Shown one piece after another: positions 1 through 6,306 of a stretch of DNA of 64,000 nucleotides; position 1 is the stretch's first letter, and each line of letters starts with the position of its first letter. The translations under genes and the position numbers were made by a program. The DNA lies in NCBI RefSeq assembly GCF_024300625.1, contig NZ_CP101322.1, positions 137,992-201,991 of the forward strand, in the 5' to 3' direction. This stretch comes from Halovivax gelatinilyticus (GTDB lineage: Archaea; Halobacteriota; Halobacteria; Halobacteriales; Natrialbaceae). The notes beneath the pieces are model-generated. The model ran no database searches, had not been told where the DNA came from, and saw only the letters and a program-made list of their open reading frames with translations.

Positions 1-628
1 AGTGGGATTGTTCGTCCACGGCGACATCGTATCGGCGCTCGGCAACGAGTACGCCCACCTGTTCGTGGATGCGTTCGACCGCCGTCACCACGAACCCGGC
101 TTCGGTCATCGCCCAGACGAGGTGTCCGACCGTCGACGGATCGTCGACTGACGGATCGTAGAACGGTTCGTCCGGGTCGGGTTCGCCGAAGAACATCACG
201 TCGCCCAGGACGAATCGGTTCGGCTCGAGCGAAGCGATCACGTCGATCGCCTCTCGCTTTTCGGCGTCGTCGAGGTGGTGCATGGCGAAGTTTGAGACGA
301 CGACGTCTACGTCGTCGTCGAACTCGGGCGCCCTGAACGTACCGTAGCCGAACGAGACGTTCCCGAGGTCACGTTCTTCGGCCTTATCGCGCGCCCGCTC
401 CATCATTCCCTCGCTAACGTCGCGACCGACGACGCGCGAGGCGTCCGGTGCGAGCGCGAGCGCGATGGCGCCCGTCCCGGTCCCGATGTCGAGAATCGTC
501 GCACCCTCCGACCGGGCGTGATCGATCACCGTATCCGCACACGCGCGGTATTCCGGCGTCTTCGAGTCGTCGTACGCCGCCGCCTGTTCGTCGAACCGCT
601 CGGCGTGTTCCTCAACGCTCCGTTTCAT
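1..628 (-). CDS. Class I SAM-dependent methyltransferase, 3' end beyond window
   Basis: The frame is open from the ATG at 628 to the left edge, giving about 209 residues without a stop, so the C-terminus lies outside. Motif I of the Rossmann methyltransferase fold is plain (ILDIGTGTGAIALALAP, near residues 45-61), with VVSNFAMHHLDD as the later motif IV region. The ATG lies inside the end of rnp3 (a 17-base overlap), so the two genes are cotranscribed and probably translationally coupled. In other haloarchaea, from general knowledge, this methyltransferase sits between rnp3 and rnp2/psmA, which suggests an RNA-related substrate. The substrate is not shown by the sequence. Confidence 0.85.
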   Translation of the reverse strand, partial: MKRSVEEHAERFDEQAAAYDDSKTPEYRACADTVIDHARSEGATILDIGTGTGAIALALAPDASRVVGRDVSEGMMERARDKAEERDLGNVSFGYGTFRAPEFDDDVDVVVSNFAMHHLDDAEKREAIDVIASLEPNRFVLGDVMFFGEPDPDEPFYDPSVDDPSTVGHLVWAMTEAGFVVTAVERIHEQVGVLVAERRYDVAVDEQSH

Positions 629-1313
629 ATCGACCCCGTTCGACCCCCGGTTCAATGAAAGACTCGGACTGGATGCGTCGGTTCTTCGTCGCGAGCCGAC
701 CCCACTCGGCGAGTCCGTCCTCGATCCACGACGCGGACAGTCCGATCACGTCGCCGAGTGCGGCGAGTTCCCGAGGAGCCCTGAGTTCGAGATGCGATCC
801 CGGATTCACGCTCACCACGTACGGGGCCTCGTAGTAAGAGACGATCTCGTGTAATTTTTGGAGAGCGGCCAGCGCCCTGACTCGTCGTCCGCCGCTCGAC
901 CGCACGACGGGCCCGAGGTCGAATTCGATGCGAACGTCGTTTTCGACCGCCGCCTTGGCCATCACGTGGTTTACGTCACCCTGGCCGGCCATCGGCCTGG
1001 TGAGCACGTCGACCTTCTCCGTTTCGACGGCGAATCGGTTCATCGTGGGCGACCCGCCAACGACGGTGACGACGGTGTGATCCGGCCGGACGTTTCCGAC
1101 GGACCCGCTCGCCGTCTCTGGCGAGTCGGCGTCGATCTCGATGCCGTCGACGACATCGAGCGAGTGCGCCTCACCGAGCGGCTCGATTCGACCGACGGCG
1201 TCCGACGAAGGAGAACGAACGACAATACCCTCGTAGCCGTACGTCGCTGCCGTCTCTAGCACTGTAGCGAGTGACTCCTCGTCGCTCGGGTCGGTTGAGA
1301 CGGCCTCGTACAT
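612..1313 (-). CDS. rnp3: Ribonuclease P protein component 3 (Rpp30)
   Basis: A 233-residue protein of the RNase P p30 family, a TIM-barrel-like protein subunit of the archaeal RNase P holoenzyme that matures the 5' end of tRNA. The start MYEAV and the early motif GYEGIVVRS are typical of the family, as is the later stretch VRIEFDLGPVVRSSGGRR followed by a helix beginning RALAALQKLHEI. The ATG at 1313 gives the normal family length. It heads a minus-strand pair with the methyltransferase, which overlaps its last codons. Confidence 0.9.
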   Translation of the reverse strand: MYEAVSTDPSDEESLATVLETAATYGYEGIVVRSPSSDAVGRIEPLGEAHSLDVVDGIEIDADSPETASGSVGNVRPDHTVVTVVGGSPTMNRFAVETEKVDVLTRPMAGQGDVNHVMAKAAVENDVRIEFDLGPVVRSSGGRRVRALAALQKLHEIVSYYEAPYVVSVNPGSHLELRAPRELAALGDVIGLSASWIEDGLAEWGRLATKNRRIQSESFIEPGVERGRYETER

Positions 1314-1550: not shown

Positions 1551-2372
1551 CTAGTTAAGCATACTCTGGGCGACGGTCGCGAGCTGACCGTTGTCCGCCT
1601 CGGCGAGTCGATCGTCGCCGATCTTGAGTCGCAGGCGCGGACGGCCGACGTCGATCGGGACCTTCTCGGTGTCGATCAGACCCATGTCCTCGAGTTTCGT
1701 CTTCGTTCGGCTGAACGTCGCTTTCGACGCGATGCCGACGTCCTCGCCCCACTTGCTGATGTCGTAGAGCAGCGCTTCGTTCCGGGCGGCGACGAGGAGC
1801 GAGATCGTGACCTCGTCCAGTCCGTCTCCGTCACCGCGGGCCGTCTCGAGCGAGCCCAGGATTGTCGTGAAGTCCTCTTCGGCCTCCGGACTGATCTCAT
1901 CTGACAGCGTGTCTCGGACGCGCGTGATCGGCGGGGTGCGGAGACTGAACGACGCCGCATCCTCCCAGCGGTTCGCGTACGTCTCGGTGGTCGCCTCGAC
2001 GAACTCGTCGTCGTCGGCGACGAGTCCGCCGACGCGGTCTGCCGCGTGGACGATCGCGACGACGGATTCGTCCGTGATGAACAGCGAATTCTCCGGCGCT
2101 TCCTCGAGGGTGCGCAGTTCGAGCGAACCGGCGTCGATCAGATCAGCCGCGTTGCTCGCGACGATGAAGTCGTCCATGACTTCTTTGAGGGTTCGCTCGT
2201 CGGCGAGCATGTGAACCGTCGGCAGGTCGTCGTACTCGATCGCGACGTTCACGAAATCCTCGATGGCGTCGCGCGAGGGGTTGACCATGTAAATGTCACC
2301 AGTAGTATCTTCTAGGACGGTTTTCACGATATCGTCAATTTGCCTGTTCAGTAAATTTGAGTTCGGTGCCAT
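1551..2372 (-). CDS. tbsP: TbsP-type (DUF5821) transcriptional regulator
   Basis: A 273-residue soluble protein that begins MAPNSNLLNRQIDDIVKTV. Its first two thirds resemble the haloarchaeal DUF5821 regulators (VNPSRDAIEDFV, LEEAPENSLFITDESVVAIVHA). The last 80 residues form a winged helix-turn-helix (ALLYDISKWGEDVGIASKATFSRTKTKLEDMGLID). From family knowledge, TbsP in Haloferax acts with TrmB in control of central carbon genes. Its target here is not visible. It is monocistronic, with an AT-rich promoter region just upstream (2373-2420). The symbol is assigned by family resemblance only. Confidence 0.72.
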   Translation of the reverse strand: MAPNSNLLNRQIDDIVKTVLEDTTGDIYMVNPSRDAIEDFVNVAIEYDDLPTVHMLADERTLKEVMDDFIVASNAADLIDAGSLELRTLEEAPENSLFITDESVVAIVHAADRVGGLVADDDEFVEATTETYANRWEDAASFSLRTPPITRVRDTLSDEISPEAEEDFTTILGSLETARGDGDGLDEVTISLLVAARNEALLYDISKWGEDVGIASKATFSRTKTKLEDMGLIDTEKVPIDVGRPRLRLKIGDDRLAEADNGQLATVAQSMLN

Positions 2373-2840: not shown

Positions 2841-4937
2841 CTAGACGCGAAGCGTCGGCCACAGATCCTGCGACCAGTAGAGGTCCCCGTCGTAGATGAC
2901 GGGCGCCTCCGATTCGGTGAGAAACGTAACGAGTTCCTCGCGGTCGAGAACGAAGTTCGACTCGTTTCCACAGAGCGAGGCGTACTCGTTTCCGGCCGTA
3001 TGTGGGAAGTAATAGGACCCAGTCGCTTGCGTCGAGTAACACTCGAGAGTCAACAGATACCGGTCGTCCTCGAGTCGTTCCAGGGCGATCGTTGTCGGCG
3101 TCCGATGATCACCCTGGGTCAACGTGTGGGTCCCGTCCCCGACGACGGCGTAATCTTTCCCCATCATGATACGCCGCCGAGCCAACCCCATTGCCCGTTC
3201 GATGCTGAACCCGTTTACCAGCAGCTTCGCGAACGTTGAGCCGACTTTGATCGCGTGATCGTTCAAGACCTGTGTGAACGTTACCGCGCCAGCGACACTC
3301 CCCTTCGTGAGTAACTCTGTACCCTCGTGGAACGATCCACATGCGTTCAGAAAGAACGTCTCGACGCCGCACGTATCGAGACTTTTCGCCGAGAAGTAGC
3401 CGTCCGGACATCGAAGTCCGTCGCTCTCGCAGTGGCCGATATAGTGAACGAAGTCGATGGGAGACTCGAAGATATCGCGCAACTCCGTGACCGTACAGCC
3501 TTCGCGCACACGTACATCTATCGATAGTTCTTCCGACCGGTCGTGATAGATGTCGTAAACGTCCGCATGTTCGCCCGCCATCTCCGGATCGTTCAGGACG
3601 ACACAGATCGTCGTCTCGTCGCTCGGCGTGTCAAGAAACTCGAGTCGATTGTAATATGCCTCCTGTGAGCATTTGAAAACGTCGATGGGAACCCCATCGG
3701 CGAGCCATCCGTGAGCTTTCGCGCTCCGTAATTCCGGTTTAACGATGTCTACAGACGAGACCTCGCCGCCCATCGAGCGCGTCCGTTGTGGAGGGTCAGC
3801 CAACCGGCCGACGGGATTCCCGCGGTAGAAATCCTCGAGTGACCGCTCAACCAGCTCGGATCCGTCAAGTTCCGACGTTCGAGGGGTAAAGCAAAGACTC
3901 ATTCGATCGAGCAAGAACGGGATCGCTTCGGCCCGGCGTGGACTCGGCTCGACGTACATCGCGAGGTGCCACTCCGGAAGGCGGTGTTCGATCGCCTCGT
4001 ACGGAACGTCGAGGTAGGCGTCGAGTCGTTCGGCCGGCGTTGCATCGTACAACCGTTTCGCATCGAGTTCGAGGACGTCGAGCAATCGGAGTTCCGAGAG
4101 GTTCGTCCCGTAGGGGCCAGCGTTTCTGACGAGACAATCGAGAAAGAACGTCTTTCGCAGCAAGCGTTCGACGTCGCGTTCGAGCCCCGTTGGCCCGAGT
4201 GTCAGTTCTCGGCCGGTATCCGTCAACCTGAGTATCGGGTGTTCGACGGTGGCCGTCACCACGTCAGCTTGCAGATAATACGCAAGCGGTGCGGTCACGA
4301 ATACGGCCTCGAACTCGTTCGGCAGCTGCAGTTCGATCCCAGAACACCGCGACCGTTGCGACGCGAGATGATCGGGGATCTCTAACGTTTCGCCGAGTTC
4401 GATCAACGGCGGGTGACCGCGAAGCGTGGGGTAGGTTCGGTCTGGACTGCTCGTTTTGTGCGACGACGAAAGGTGCGAGACCGCCCGCGCGAGGCCGGCG
4501 GGCGTCTCCGGAACCGTGATCGTCCCGGTCGGGAACTCGTGTCGGCTCCGAAAACCGAGCACGATCGGCAGTCGGTCGGGAAACGAAACGATGACCGACT
4601 CGAAGTCGGCGGTTCGCTCGATTCGTACGGGCCCCGCAACCCGAATGTACGTCTTGATCTCCGTGTCGACATCGATGAGATACTCGCCGCGAGGGAGCTC
4701 CAGGGGCTCTCCGCCGGGGCCGAGTTCGTAGTGGGCGTCGGACTCGGTCGATCGCGCGTAGACGACCGCGTGGGGGAATCGAAGTTCCGAGGCTGTCGCC
4801 TCTAAGACCGCGTCCACCGGGCGCGAGACCGCCACATCGGAGTCACGTACCGCACTGAGATTACCCGAGACCGGGAGTTCCGTGCTGTCCGTGTCGACGA
4901 TGTGGAGGTGATCGGGCCCCACCTCCCACTCGATCAT
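2841..4937 (-). CDS. CHAT-domain caspase-like protein
   Basis: A 698-residue protein starting at the ATG at 4937 (MIEWEVGPDHLHIVD); the open frame continues upstream only into glyA, so that extension is spurious. Residues 1 to about 400 are beta-rich and then helical, with no family I recognise. The C-terminal third has the pattern of a CHAT (caspase HetF associated with TPRs) peptidase: FVHYIGHCESDG with His502, then FFLNACGSF with Cys533, then the alanine/glycine-rich strand SVAGAVTF, and a closing VVGDGTHTL that resembles the GDPTLRL end of CHAT domains. His502 and Cys533 are the predicted catalytic dyad. I see no transmembrane segment. It is divergent from glyA across 121 bases. Its biological role is unknown. 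Confidence 0.8.
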   Translation of the reverse strand: MIEWEVGPDHLHIVDTDSTELPVSGNLSAVRDSDVAVSRPVDAVLEATASELRFPHAVVYARSTESDAHYELGPGGEPLELPRGEYLIDVDTEIKTYIRVAGPVRIERTADFESVIVSFPDRLPIVLGFRSRHEFPTGTITVPETPAGLARAVSHLSSSHKTSSPDRTYPTLRGHPPLIELGETLEIPDHLASQRSRCSGIELQLPNEFEAVFVTAPLAYYLQADVVTATVEHPILRLTDTGRELTLGPTGLERDVERLLRKTFFLDCLVRNAGPYGTNLSELRLLDVLELDAKRLYDATPAERLDAYLDVPYEAIEHRLPEWHLAMYVEPSPRRAEAIPFLLDRMSLCFTPRTSELDGSELVERSLEDFYRGNPVGRLADPPQRTRSMGGEVSSVDIVKPELRSAKAHGWLADGVPIDVFKCSQEAYYNRLEFLDTPSDETTICVVLNDPEMAGEHADVYDIYHDRSEELSIDVRVREGCTVTELRDIFESPIDFVHYIGHCESDGLRCPDGYFSAKSLDTCGVETFFLNACGSFHEGTELLTKGSVAGAVTFTQVLNDHAIKVGSTFAKLLVNGFSIERAMGLARRRIMMGKDYAVVGDGTHTLTQGDHRTPTTIALERLEDDRYLLTLECYSTQATGSYYFPHTAGNEYASLCGNESNFVLDREELVTFLTESEAPVIYDGDLYWSQDLWPTLRV

Positions 4938-5058
4938 TCGGATGGGCCAATGGATTCGAGGGCAATTAGTTGTATCGAAGAACGGTCCAATTTTCGAACT
5001 GGTGGTGAATGAATCCGGGAAAGGTACACTTATGGACCGGCCGGGACCGGTATCGAAT
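4938..5058. promoter_or_regulatory. Divergent promoter region CHAT gene / glyA
   Basis: This 121-base spacer serves both genes. For glyA a TATA-like acacttatgg at about 5024-5033 is 26-30 nt before the ATG at 5059, so the glyA transcript is predicted to be leaderless. For the minus-strand gene an AT-rich aactaattg (reverse strand, about 4964-4972) is at a comparable distance from 4937. A GC-rich near-palindrome around ggaccggccgggaccggt lies at 5035-5052. Confidence 0.5.
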
Positions 5059-6306
5059 ATGGACCACGAGGTTACCCGTTCTGTCGACGAGGCGGTCGCA
5101 GAAGCACTCGAAGGGGAAGCCGATCGACAGCGATCGACGCTGCAGATGATCGCGAGCGAGAACCACGTGAGCGAGGCAGTTCTCGACGCGCAAGGAAGCG
5201 TGCTGACGAACAAGTACGCGGAAGGGTATCCCGGCGCCCGGTACTACGGCGGCTGCGAGTACGCCGACGAGGTTGAACGGCTCGCGATCGAGCGAGCGAG
5301 CGAGCTCTTCGGTGCCGACCACGTAAACGTCCAGCCCCACTCCGGCACGCAGGCGAATCAGGCCGTCTACTTCTCGATGCTGGAACCGGGCGATAAGATC
5401 CTCTCGCTCGACTTGAACCACGGTGGCCACCTGAGTCACGGTCACCCGGCCAACTTCACGGGCCAGCTCTACGAGGTCGAACAGTACGAAGTTAACCCAG
5501 AAACCGGGCTGCTCGATTACGACGGGCTCGCCGACCACGCCGCCGAGTTCGAACCGGACATCATCGTCTCGGGATACTCGGCGTACCCCCGAGAGGTCGA
5601 GTGGACGACGATCCAGTCGGTGGCAGACGAGGTCGGCGCGCTCCACCTCGCCGACATCGCACACATCACCGGACTCGTCGCCGCCGGCGTCCACGCCTCT
5701 CCCGTCGGTATCGCGGACTTCGTCACCGGAAGTACGCACAAAACCATCCGCGCCGGTCGCGGTGGCATCGTCATGTGTCGGGAAGAGTACGCCGACGACA
5801 TCGACGCGGCCGTCTTCCCCGGCGGGCAGGGCGGTCCGCTCATGCACAACATCGCCGGTAAGGCCGTCGGCTTCAAAGAGGCGCTCCAGCCCGAGTTCGA
5901 AGCGTACGCGGAACGAACCGTCGAGAACGCGAACGTCCTGGGTGAAACGCTCGCCGAGCACGGATTCTCGCTGGTCTCCGGCGGAACCGACAACCACCTC
6001 GTCCTCGTCGACCTGCGCGAGTCGCATCCGGAGACTTCCGGGGGCGACGCCGAAGACGCCCTCGAGGCCGCGGATATCGTCCTCAACGCGAATACGGTCC
6101 CCGGCGAGACGCGCAGTCCGTTCGATCCGAGCGGGATCAGAGTCGGAACGCCAGCGCTCACGACACGCGGGTTCGACGCGGACGATACGCGTCGCGTCGG
6201 CGAACTTATCGCGCGCGTTATCGACGCACCGTCGGACGAAGCGGTCCGATCCGACGTTCGAGACGAAGTGGCGGCGCTCTGTGAGGCCAATCCGCTCTAC
6301 GAGTAA
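5059..6306 (+). CDS. glyA: Serine hydroxymethyltransferase
   Basis: A 415-residue PLP enzyme that interconverts serine and glycine and charges tetrahydrofolate with a one-carbon unit. The family signature is clear: STHKTIRAGRGG with the PLP lysine at about residue 228, HSGTQANQAVY in the PLP phosphate region, and ADIAHITGLVAAG. The ATG at 5059 is chosen over a start at 4942, because the extra 39 residues would cover the promoter and are not part of the family. folD lies 0.7 kb downstream on the same strand, so the two make a one-carbon neighbourhood. Confidence 0.95.
   Translation: MDHEVTRSVDEAVAEALEGEADRQRSTLQMIASENHVSEAVLDAQGSVLTNKYAEGYPGARYYGGCEYADEVERLAIERASELFGADHVNVQPHSGTQANQAVYFSMLEPGDKILSLDLNHGGHLSHGHPANFTGQLYEVEQYEVNPETGLLDYDGLADHAAEFEPDIIVSGYSAYPREVEWTTIQSVADEVGALHLADIAHITGLVAAGVHASPVGIADFVTGSTHKTIRAGRGGIVMCREEYADDIDAAVFPGGQGGPLMHNIAGKAVGFKEALQPEFEAYAERTVENANVLGETLAEHGFSLVSGGTDNHLVLVDLRESHPETSGGDAEDALEAADIVLNANTVPGETRSPFDPSGIRVGTPALTTRGFDADDTRRVGELIARVIDAPSDEAVRSDVRDEVAALCEANPLYE

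Follow-up and report, generated by a model that had tools for sequence, protein, structure and literature searches.

Introduction

Which protein does the 698-residue open reading frame at positions 2841–4937 of the window (the whole 64,000-nucleotide stretch of Halovivax gelatinilyticus DNA analyzed here) encode, and is it related to the caspase-like activity of haloarchaea? Extracts of Haloferax volcanii strongly cleave LEVD, VEID, and IETD substrates, and the gene is not known (PMC3615174). An earlier note had read the frame as a CHAT-type, caspase-like protease with a His502/Cys533 dyad, and had linked it to the reported activity as a possible stress or death protease. Our analysis favors, as the reading we hold to be probable, a cysteine endopeptidase of CHAT-like type (clan CD, caspase fold) that carries a front of its own for sensing or docking.

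The gene and its surroundings

The frame lies on the minus strand, with the ATG at 4937 and the stop codon ending at 2841, where the earlier note had placed it. It is not a chance frame, because 80 orthologues were fetched and every one carries both H502 and C533. The features of the locus are as follows.

1551–2372, minus strand: TbsP-type transcription regulator, conserved neighbor (Pfam TbsP_N, 1.2e-59; same gene in 76/78 loci)
2841–4937, minus strand: gene for a 698-aa predicted cysteine protease, CHAT-like and divergent, from active subgroup A (open reading frame and translation; 80 orthologues)
2844–3104, minus strand: C-terminal beta-rich extension, residues 612–698 (model; active copies keep W688, which most inactive ones lack)
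3120–3629, minus strand: predicted caspase-fold catalytic domain, residues 437–606 (AlphaFold2, fold search; Pfam CHAT on relatives)
3339–3341, minus strand: predicted catalytic Cys533 codon, in FFLNACGS (invariant in orthologues)
3432–3434, minus strand: predicted catalytic His502 codon, in FVHYIGH (invariant in orthologues)
3753–3863, minus strand: low-confidence linker, residues 359–395 (pLDDT below 50)
3888–4538, minus strand: conserved alpha/beta domain, residues 134–350 (model, conservation, full-length structural alignments)
4539–4937, minus strand: N-terminal beta-sandwich domain, residues 1–133 (AlphaFold2 model of residues 1–358)
4938–5058, no strand: intergenic region shared with the divergent glyA, carrying a promoter-like CCGATACAACTAAC-type element (retained in many of the orthologous loci)
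5059–6306, plus strand: glyA (serine hydroxymethyltransferase), conserved divergent neighbor (Pfam SHMT, E 8e-151; 76/78 loci)

The probable start of glyA at about 5059 leaves a gap of about 120 bp to the CHAT-like gene. The short region shared by the two divergent genes, described in the earlier note, is thus present and contains a conserved promoter-like element. The 14 bases CCGATACAACTAAC lie about 40 bp upstream of the ATG of the CHAT-like gene and are kept in many orthologous loci; judged from the sequence, they are likely the promoter element of this gene. The window subgroup is located between divergent glyA and tbsP in 76 of 78 loci, which points to a vertically inherited core gene and not a mobile one. 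Downstream of tbsP, RNase P p30 and methyltransferase genes were found (window 1–1313), and a proteasome alpha-subunit-like gene comes next in 41 related loci. We also agree with the earlier note that no effector gene adjoins the window copy: no conserved one was found, the neighbors being glyA, TbsP, and RNase P p30.

The family profile matched 271 of the 292 Halobacteria genomes. The family is absent from the other 21 and is therefore not essential throughout the class. In a phylum-wide draw outside Halobacteria, only four genomes matched, all from one family. Reading the sequence around these outside members (L176–L179) revealed an archaeal dnaG-like gene nearby and, for three of them, a dihydroorotase-like gene. 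One genome of the same order as the window (G124; L110, L131, L138, L144–L151) contained about a dozen family matches, several of them divergent.

Predicted fold of the catalytic domain and the front

Profile searches with the window protein gave no match to any Pfam (including CHAT, PF12770), NCBIfam, or PADLOC model. Pfam CHAT matched 18 of 54 orthologues weakly (best E 1.5e-5), and two relatives scored individually against it reached 20.4 and 23.9 bits, with a cut-off of 24. The same model yielded no match in the window's own genome at E values up to 1, so the family is far from it. The family profile had no match among PDB sequences at E up to 10.

The full-length AlphaFold2 model, built from the orthologue alignment, had a pLDDT of 85.8. 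Residues 437–606 show the caspase strand–helix order, and strands 494–500 and 525–531 directly precede His502 and Cys533. The top solved matches in Foldseek were SAVED-CHAT 8tl0 (E = 7.8e-8; roughly 20% identical across about 200 columns), followed by separase (1.8e-5) and gingipain (5.9e-5). VIA-align yielded Z values of 21 for gingipain, 18 for SAVED-CHAT, 17 for separase, 13 for Csx29, and 12 for caspase-7 and legumain. The caspase/CHAT-like C-terminal domain proposed in the earlier note is borne out at the level of prediction, with the clan CD sheet present in the modeled structure. As modeled, the window protein is a divergent CHAT-like clan CD caspase-fold protein, and not a textbook CHAT.

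The N-terminal part, noted earlier as matching no family, indeed has no Pfam, NCBIfam, or PADLOC match; its model comprises the beta-sandwich (1–133) and the alpha/beta domain (134–350). Residues 1–358 modeled alone reached a pLDDT of 93. The best VIA match of the beta-sandwich was the galactose-mutarotase-like 3dcd with a Z of 9.4, barely above the level of unrelated models, and Foldseek on the front model returned no match below 1e-3. The best matches of the fold search, which barely covered residues 134–350, included no SAVED, TPR, or other named sensor fold. Apart from the catalytic residues, conservation is highest in the alpha/beta domain, where R167, P170, L218, Y221, D267, R271, Y308, and W323 are nearly invariant. 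Part of this domain aligns with the non-catalytic lobe of CHAT, separase, and gingipain structures; several VIA-aligned ranges with separase, DdvA, and Csx29 begin at residues 209–213, and that with gingipain at 322. The models suggest that residues 134–350 may be a degenerate second lobe, as in separase, gingipain, and similar proteins. That the front might be an independent module reused elsewhere was rejected: its matches in 41 genomes lie in frames with room for a CHAT-like tail, with the exception of two shorter frames, both in incomplete genomes.

Among known systems, CHAT proteins (PF12770, SAVED-CHAT 8tl0) share the caspase fold, the His–Cys dyad, and a weak but consistent profile match in the relatives. 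They differ in the N-terminal architecture; no SAVED or TPR part was seen here, and the members scored individually fall at or below the Pfam cut-off. For separase (C50) and gingipain (C25), the alignment spans the catalytic domain and part of the preceding lobe; however, there was no PDB sequence match, and neither securin-like nor secretion features were seen in the window protein. TPR-CHAT Csx29 (Craspase) has the CHAT-type catalytic fold in common (Z about 13), whereas the window protein model has no TPR repeats, its front is a beta-sandwich plus an alpha/beta domain, and the window-type neighborhood has no type III-E CRISPR locus (gRAMP/Cas7-11). Caspases, orthocaspases, and metacaspases (C14) resemble the family in fold (caspase-7 Z about 12) and dyad, but the window protein carries NACGS instead of QACxG or DxCxS and has no peptidase C14 Pfam match.

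Conservation of the predicted catalytic dyad

His502 and Cys533 are found at the positions and in the motifs given in the earlier note, followed by GDGTHTL, which begins at residue 600. That reading depended on the two residues being conserved in haloarchaeal homologues, and both are kept in 80 of the 80 named orthologues, as well as in the window protein. The orthologues came from a scan of named prokaryote genomes, with identities of roughly 39–71%. DFVHYIGH was among the search patterns, and circularity was checked on the 14 loci that lack this exact string and were found by other patterns; all 14 still carry H502 and C533.

The residue two positions before Cys533 is Asn531, and active copies display an NACGS or NACQS-type motif. 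Caspases have Gln at this position (QACxG), and metacaspases have Asp (DxCxS). Asn531 is unlike both, and therefore Asp-specific cleavage cannot be assumed.

Paralogues with and without the dyad

The earlier note overlooked the paralogues, some of which stand beside signaling genes. The genome of the window has at least six family genes including the window copy, four of them without the dyad: L002 has it intact, while it is lost in L003, L004, L005, and the short L008. In the wider paralogue set, 93 copies have both residues, 10 have neither, and one is doubtful; the few that retain a single dyad residue include L155 and L214 (His in L214). The tree indicated at least two independent dyad losses within haloarchaea, and one member outside Halobacteria also lacks both residues. 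N531, E456, F528, T553, and W688 mostly vanish together with the dyad. The alpha/beta domain residues R167, L218, Y221, D267, and W323 are retained in the dyad-less copies.

The genomic partners of the two kinds of copies differ. A GAF-histidine kinase gene adjoins 13 of 23 dyad-less copies (nine genomes, same strand) versus 0 of 35 intact copies (Fisher p = 3.6e-7), and a DUF7504 gene adjoins 14 of 35 intact copies (five with HalOD1) versus 0 of 23 dyad-less ones (p = 3e-4); these counts include related copies, which inflate the Fisher p-values. The presence of inactivated copies beside sensor kinases points to regulated proteolysis. In haloarchaea, the pairing of HalOD1 with a divergent KaiC-like domain has been described as a signaling architecture (PMC5847659). 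We infer that DUF7504 is this divergent KaiC-like domain; a search of DUF7504 against the PDB gave no match.

At individual loci, same-strand GAF-(PAS)-histidine kinase genes adjoin the dyad-less L159, L160, L209, L211, L213, L214, L216, L218–L221, and L224, and the active subgroup B copies L139, L141, L182, L222, L229, L237, and L244 lie immediately 3' of DUF7504 or HalOD1-DUF7504 genes. The window's own genome also contains a short CHAT-like remnant (L161:6028–7133). About 120 residues that resemble a degenerate receiver domain but give no Pfam hit precede it, and another short fragment of the family comes after it. Near a dyad-less paralogue of the same genome, a toxin–antitoxin-like pair with a PIN-type look was read from the sequence (L158:2937–3640).

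Alternative readings

The His and Cys residues could instead be structural or form a metal site (H498-x3-H502-C503-x6-C510) in a non-proteolytic scaffold. Subgroup A shows no variation at H498, H502, C503, or C510, and C510 is often retained in dyad-less copies, as a scaffold would have it. However, H498 is replaced by Gln in two dyad-intact copies outside Halobacteria, and C503 is variable in subgroup B. Only H502 and C533 therefore stay together, which makes His502 the catalytic candidate rather than His498. In addition, each of the two follows one of two consecutive strands, where the catalytic residues of clan CD are located, and we consider the scaffold improbable. Similarly small is the chance we give to an abortive-infection or anti-phage protease of the SAVED-CHAT or Craspase kind. 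The SAVED-CHAT filament is the closest solved fold by Foldseek, and some paralogues are carried on megaplasmids, but the window type resides on the chromosome and keeps its synteny in 76 of 78 loci. Moreover, the PADLOC models (2023 library) matched 0 of 54 relatives, and none of the annotated contexts seen showed a CRISPR, SAVED, or gasdermin gene.

A further reading makes the family the source of, or a relative of, the haloarchaeal LEVD/VEID/IETD-cleaving activity, with a role in programmed cell death. One genus of the genome set is identifiable as Haloferax by its plasmid-like contigs, which match plasmids of Haloferax at about 81%. Each of its 15 genomes has exactly one family member with an intact dyad, located beside a DUF7504 gene where the context was read. 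This single copy in 15/15 genomes fits the strong activity of Haloferax volcanii extracts, for which no gene is known (PMC3615174). On the tree, however, these copies belong to the second active subgroup (B) and not to subgroup A; the window's subgroup was not seen in the 15 genomes, so the window protein is not a candidate there. Asn531 differs from the Gln and Asp of the caspase and metacaspase motifs, and strong constitutive activity in growing cells suits a regulated CHAT protease poorly. We regard this reading as unlikely. For the window protein, the stress or death role and the link to the reported activity suggested in the earlier note gain no support here. Its subgroup is apparently missing in Haloferax, and Asn531 gives no cue for Asp cleavage. 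The hypermotility gene HVO_2248 (PMC7824242) was considered as this protein and rejected; its neighbors ura2 and apt3 differ from those of the Haloferax locus.

Discussion

The window gene most likely encodes a signaling cysteine endopeptidase, with a predicted activity that can be switched and is confined to a narrow range of substrates. Cys533, activated by His502, would cut a small set of substrates, and the front (beta-sandwich plus alpha/beta domain) would hold the catalytic domain off until a signal or partner binds. By way of the alpha/beta domain that they have in common with it, the dyad-less paralogues may serve as regulators or decoys coupled to kinases. The window copy has neither a kinase nor a HalOD1 neighbor, and its signaling role would be carried over by analogy with the paralogues. 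For this copy, a housekeeping or metabolic-state signal is a more likely trigger than phage infection. A bolder version, to which we assign a low probability, is that active proteases with HalOD1/DUF7504 and pseudo-proteases with GAF-histidine kinases share a docking domain and form switchable complexes, and that the single Haloferax copy is the archaeal caspase-like activity.

The caspase fold itself is not new, since the label "caspase family" or "CHAT domain-containing" is already given to a few plasmid copies by automatic annotation. The present analysis adds a CHAT-like family that is conserved among haloarchaea, lacks a Pfam or NCBIfam model of its own, and has a dedicated front as well as inactive sister copies associated with kinases. 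Such a pseudo-protease pattern is familiar from eukaryotes, and no description of it for archaea was found in the literature searched. In this family, the active site was lost repeatedly, the shared domain was kept, and the partner was swapped, with histidine kinases instead of DUF7504/HalOD1. The family also represents a widespread, dyad-conserved candidate for the archaeal caspase-like activity that has been reported without a gene.
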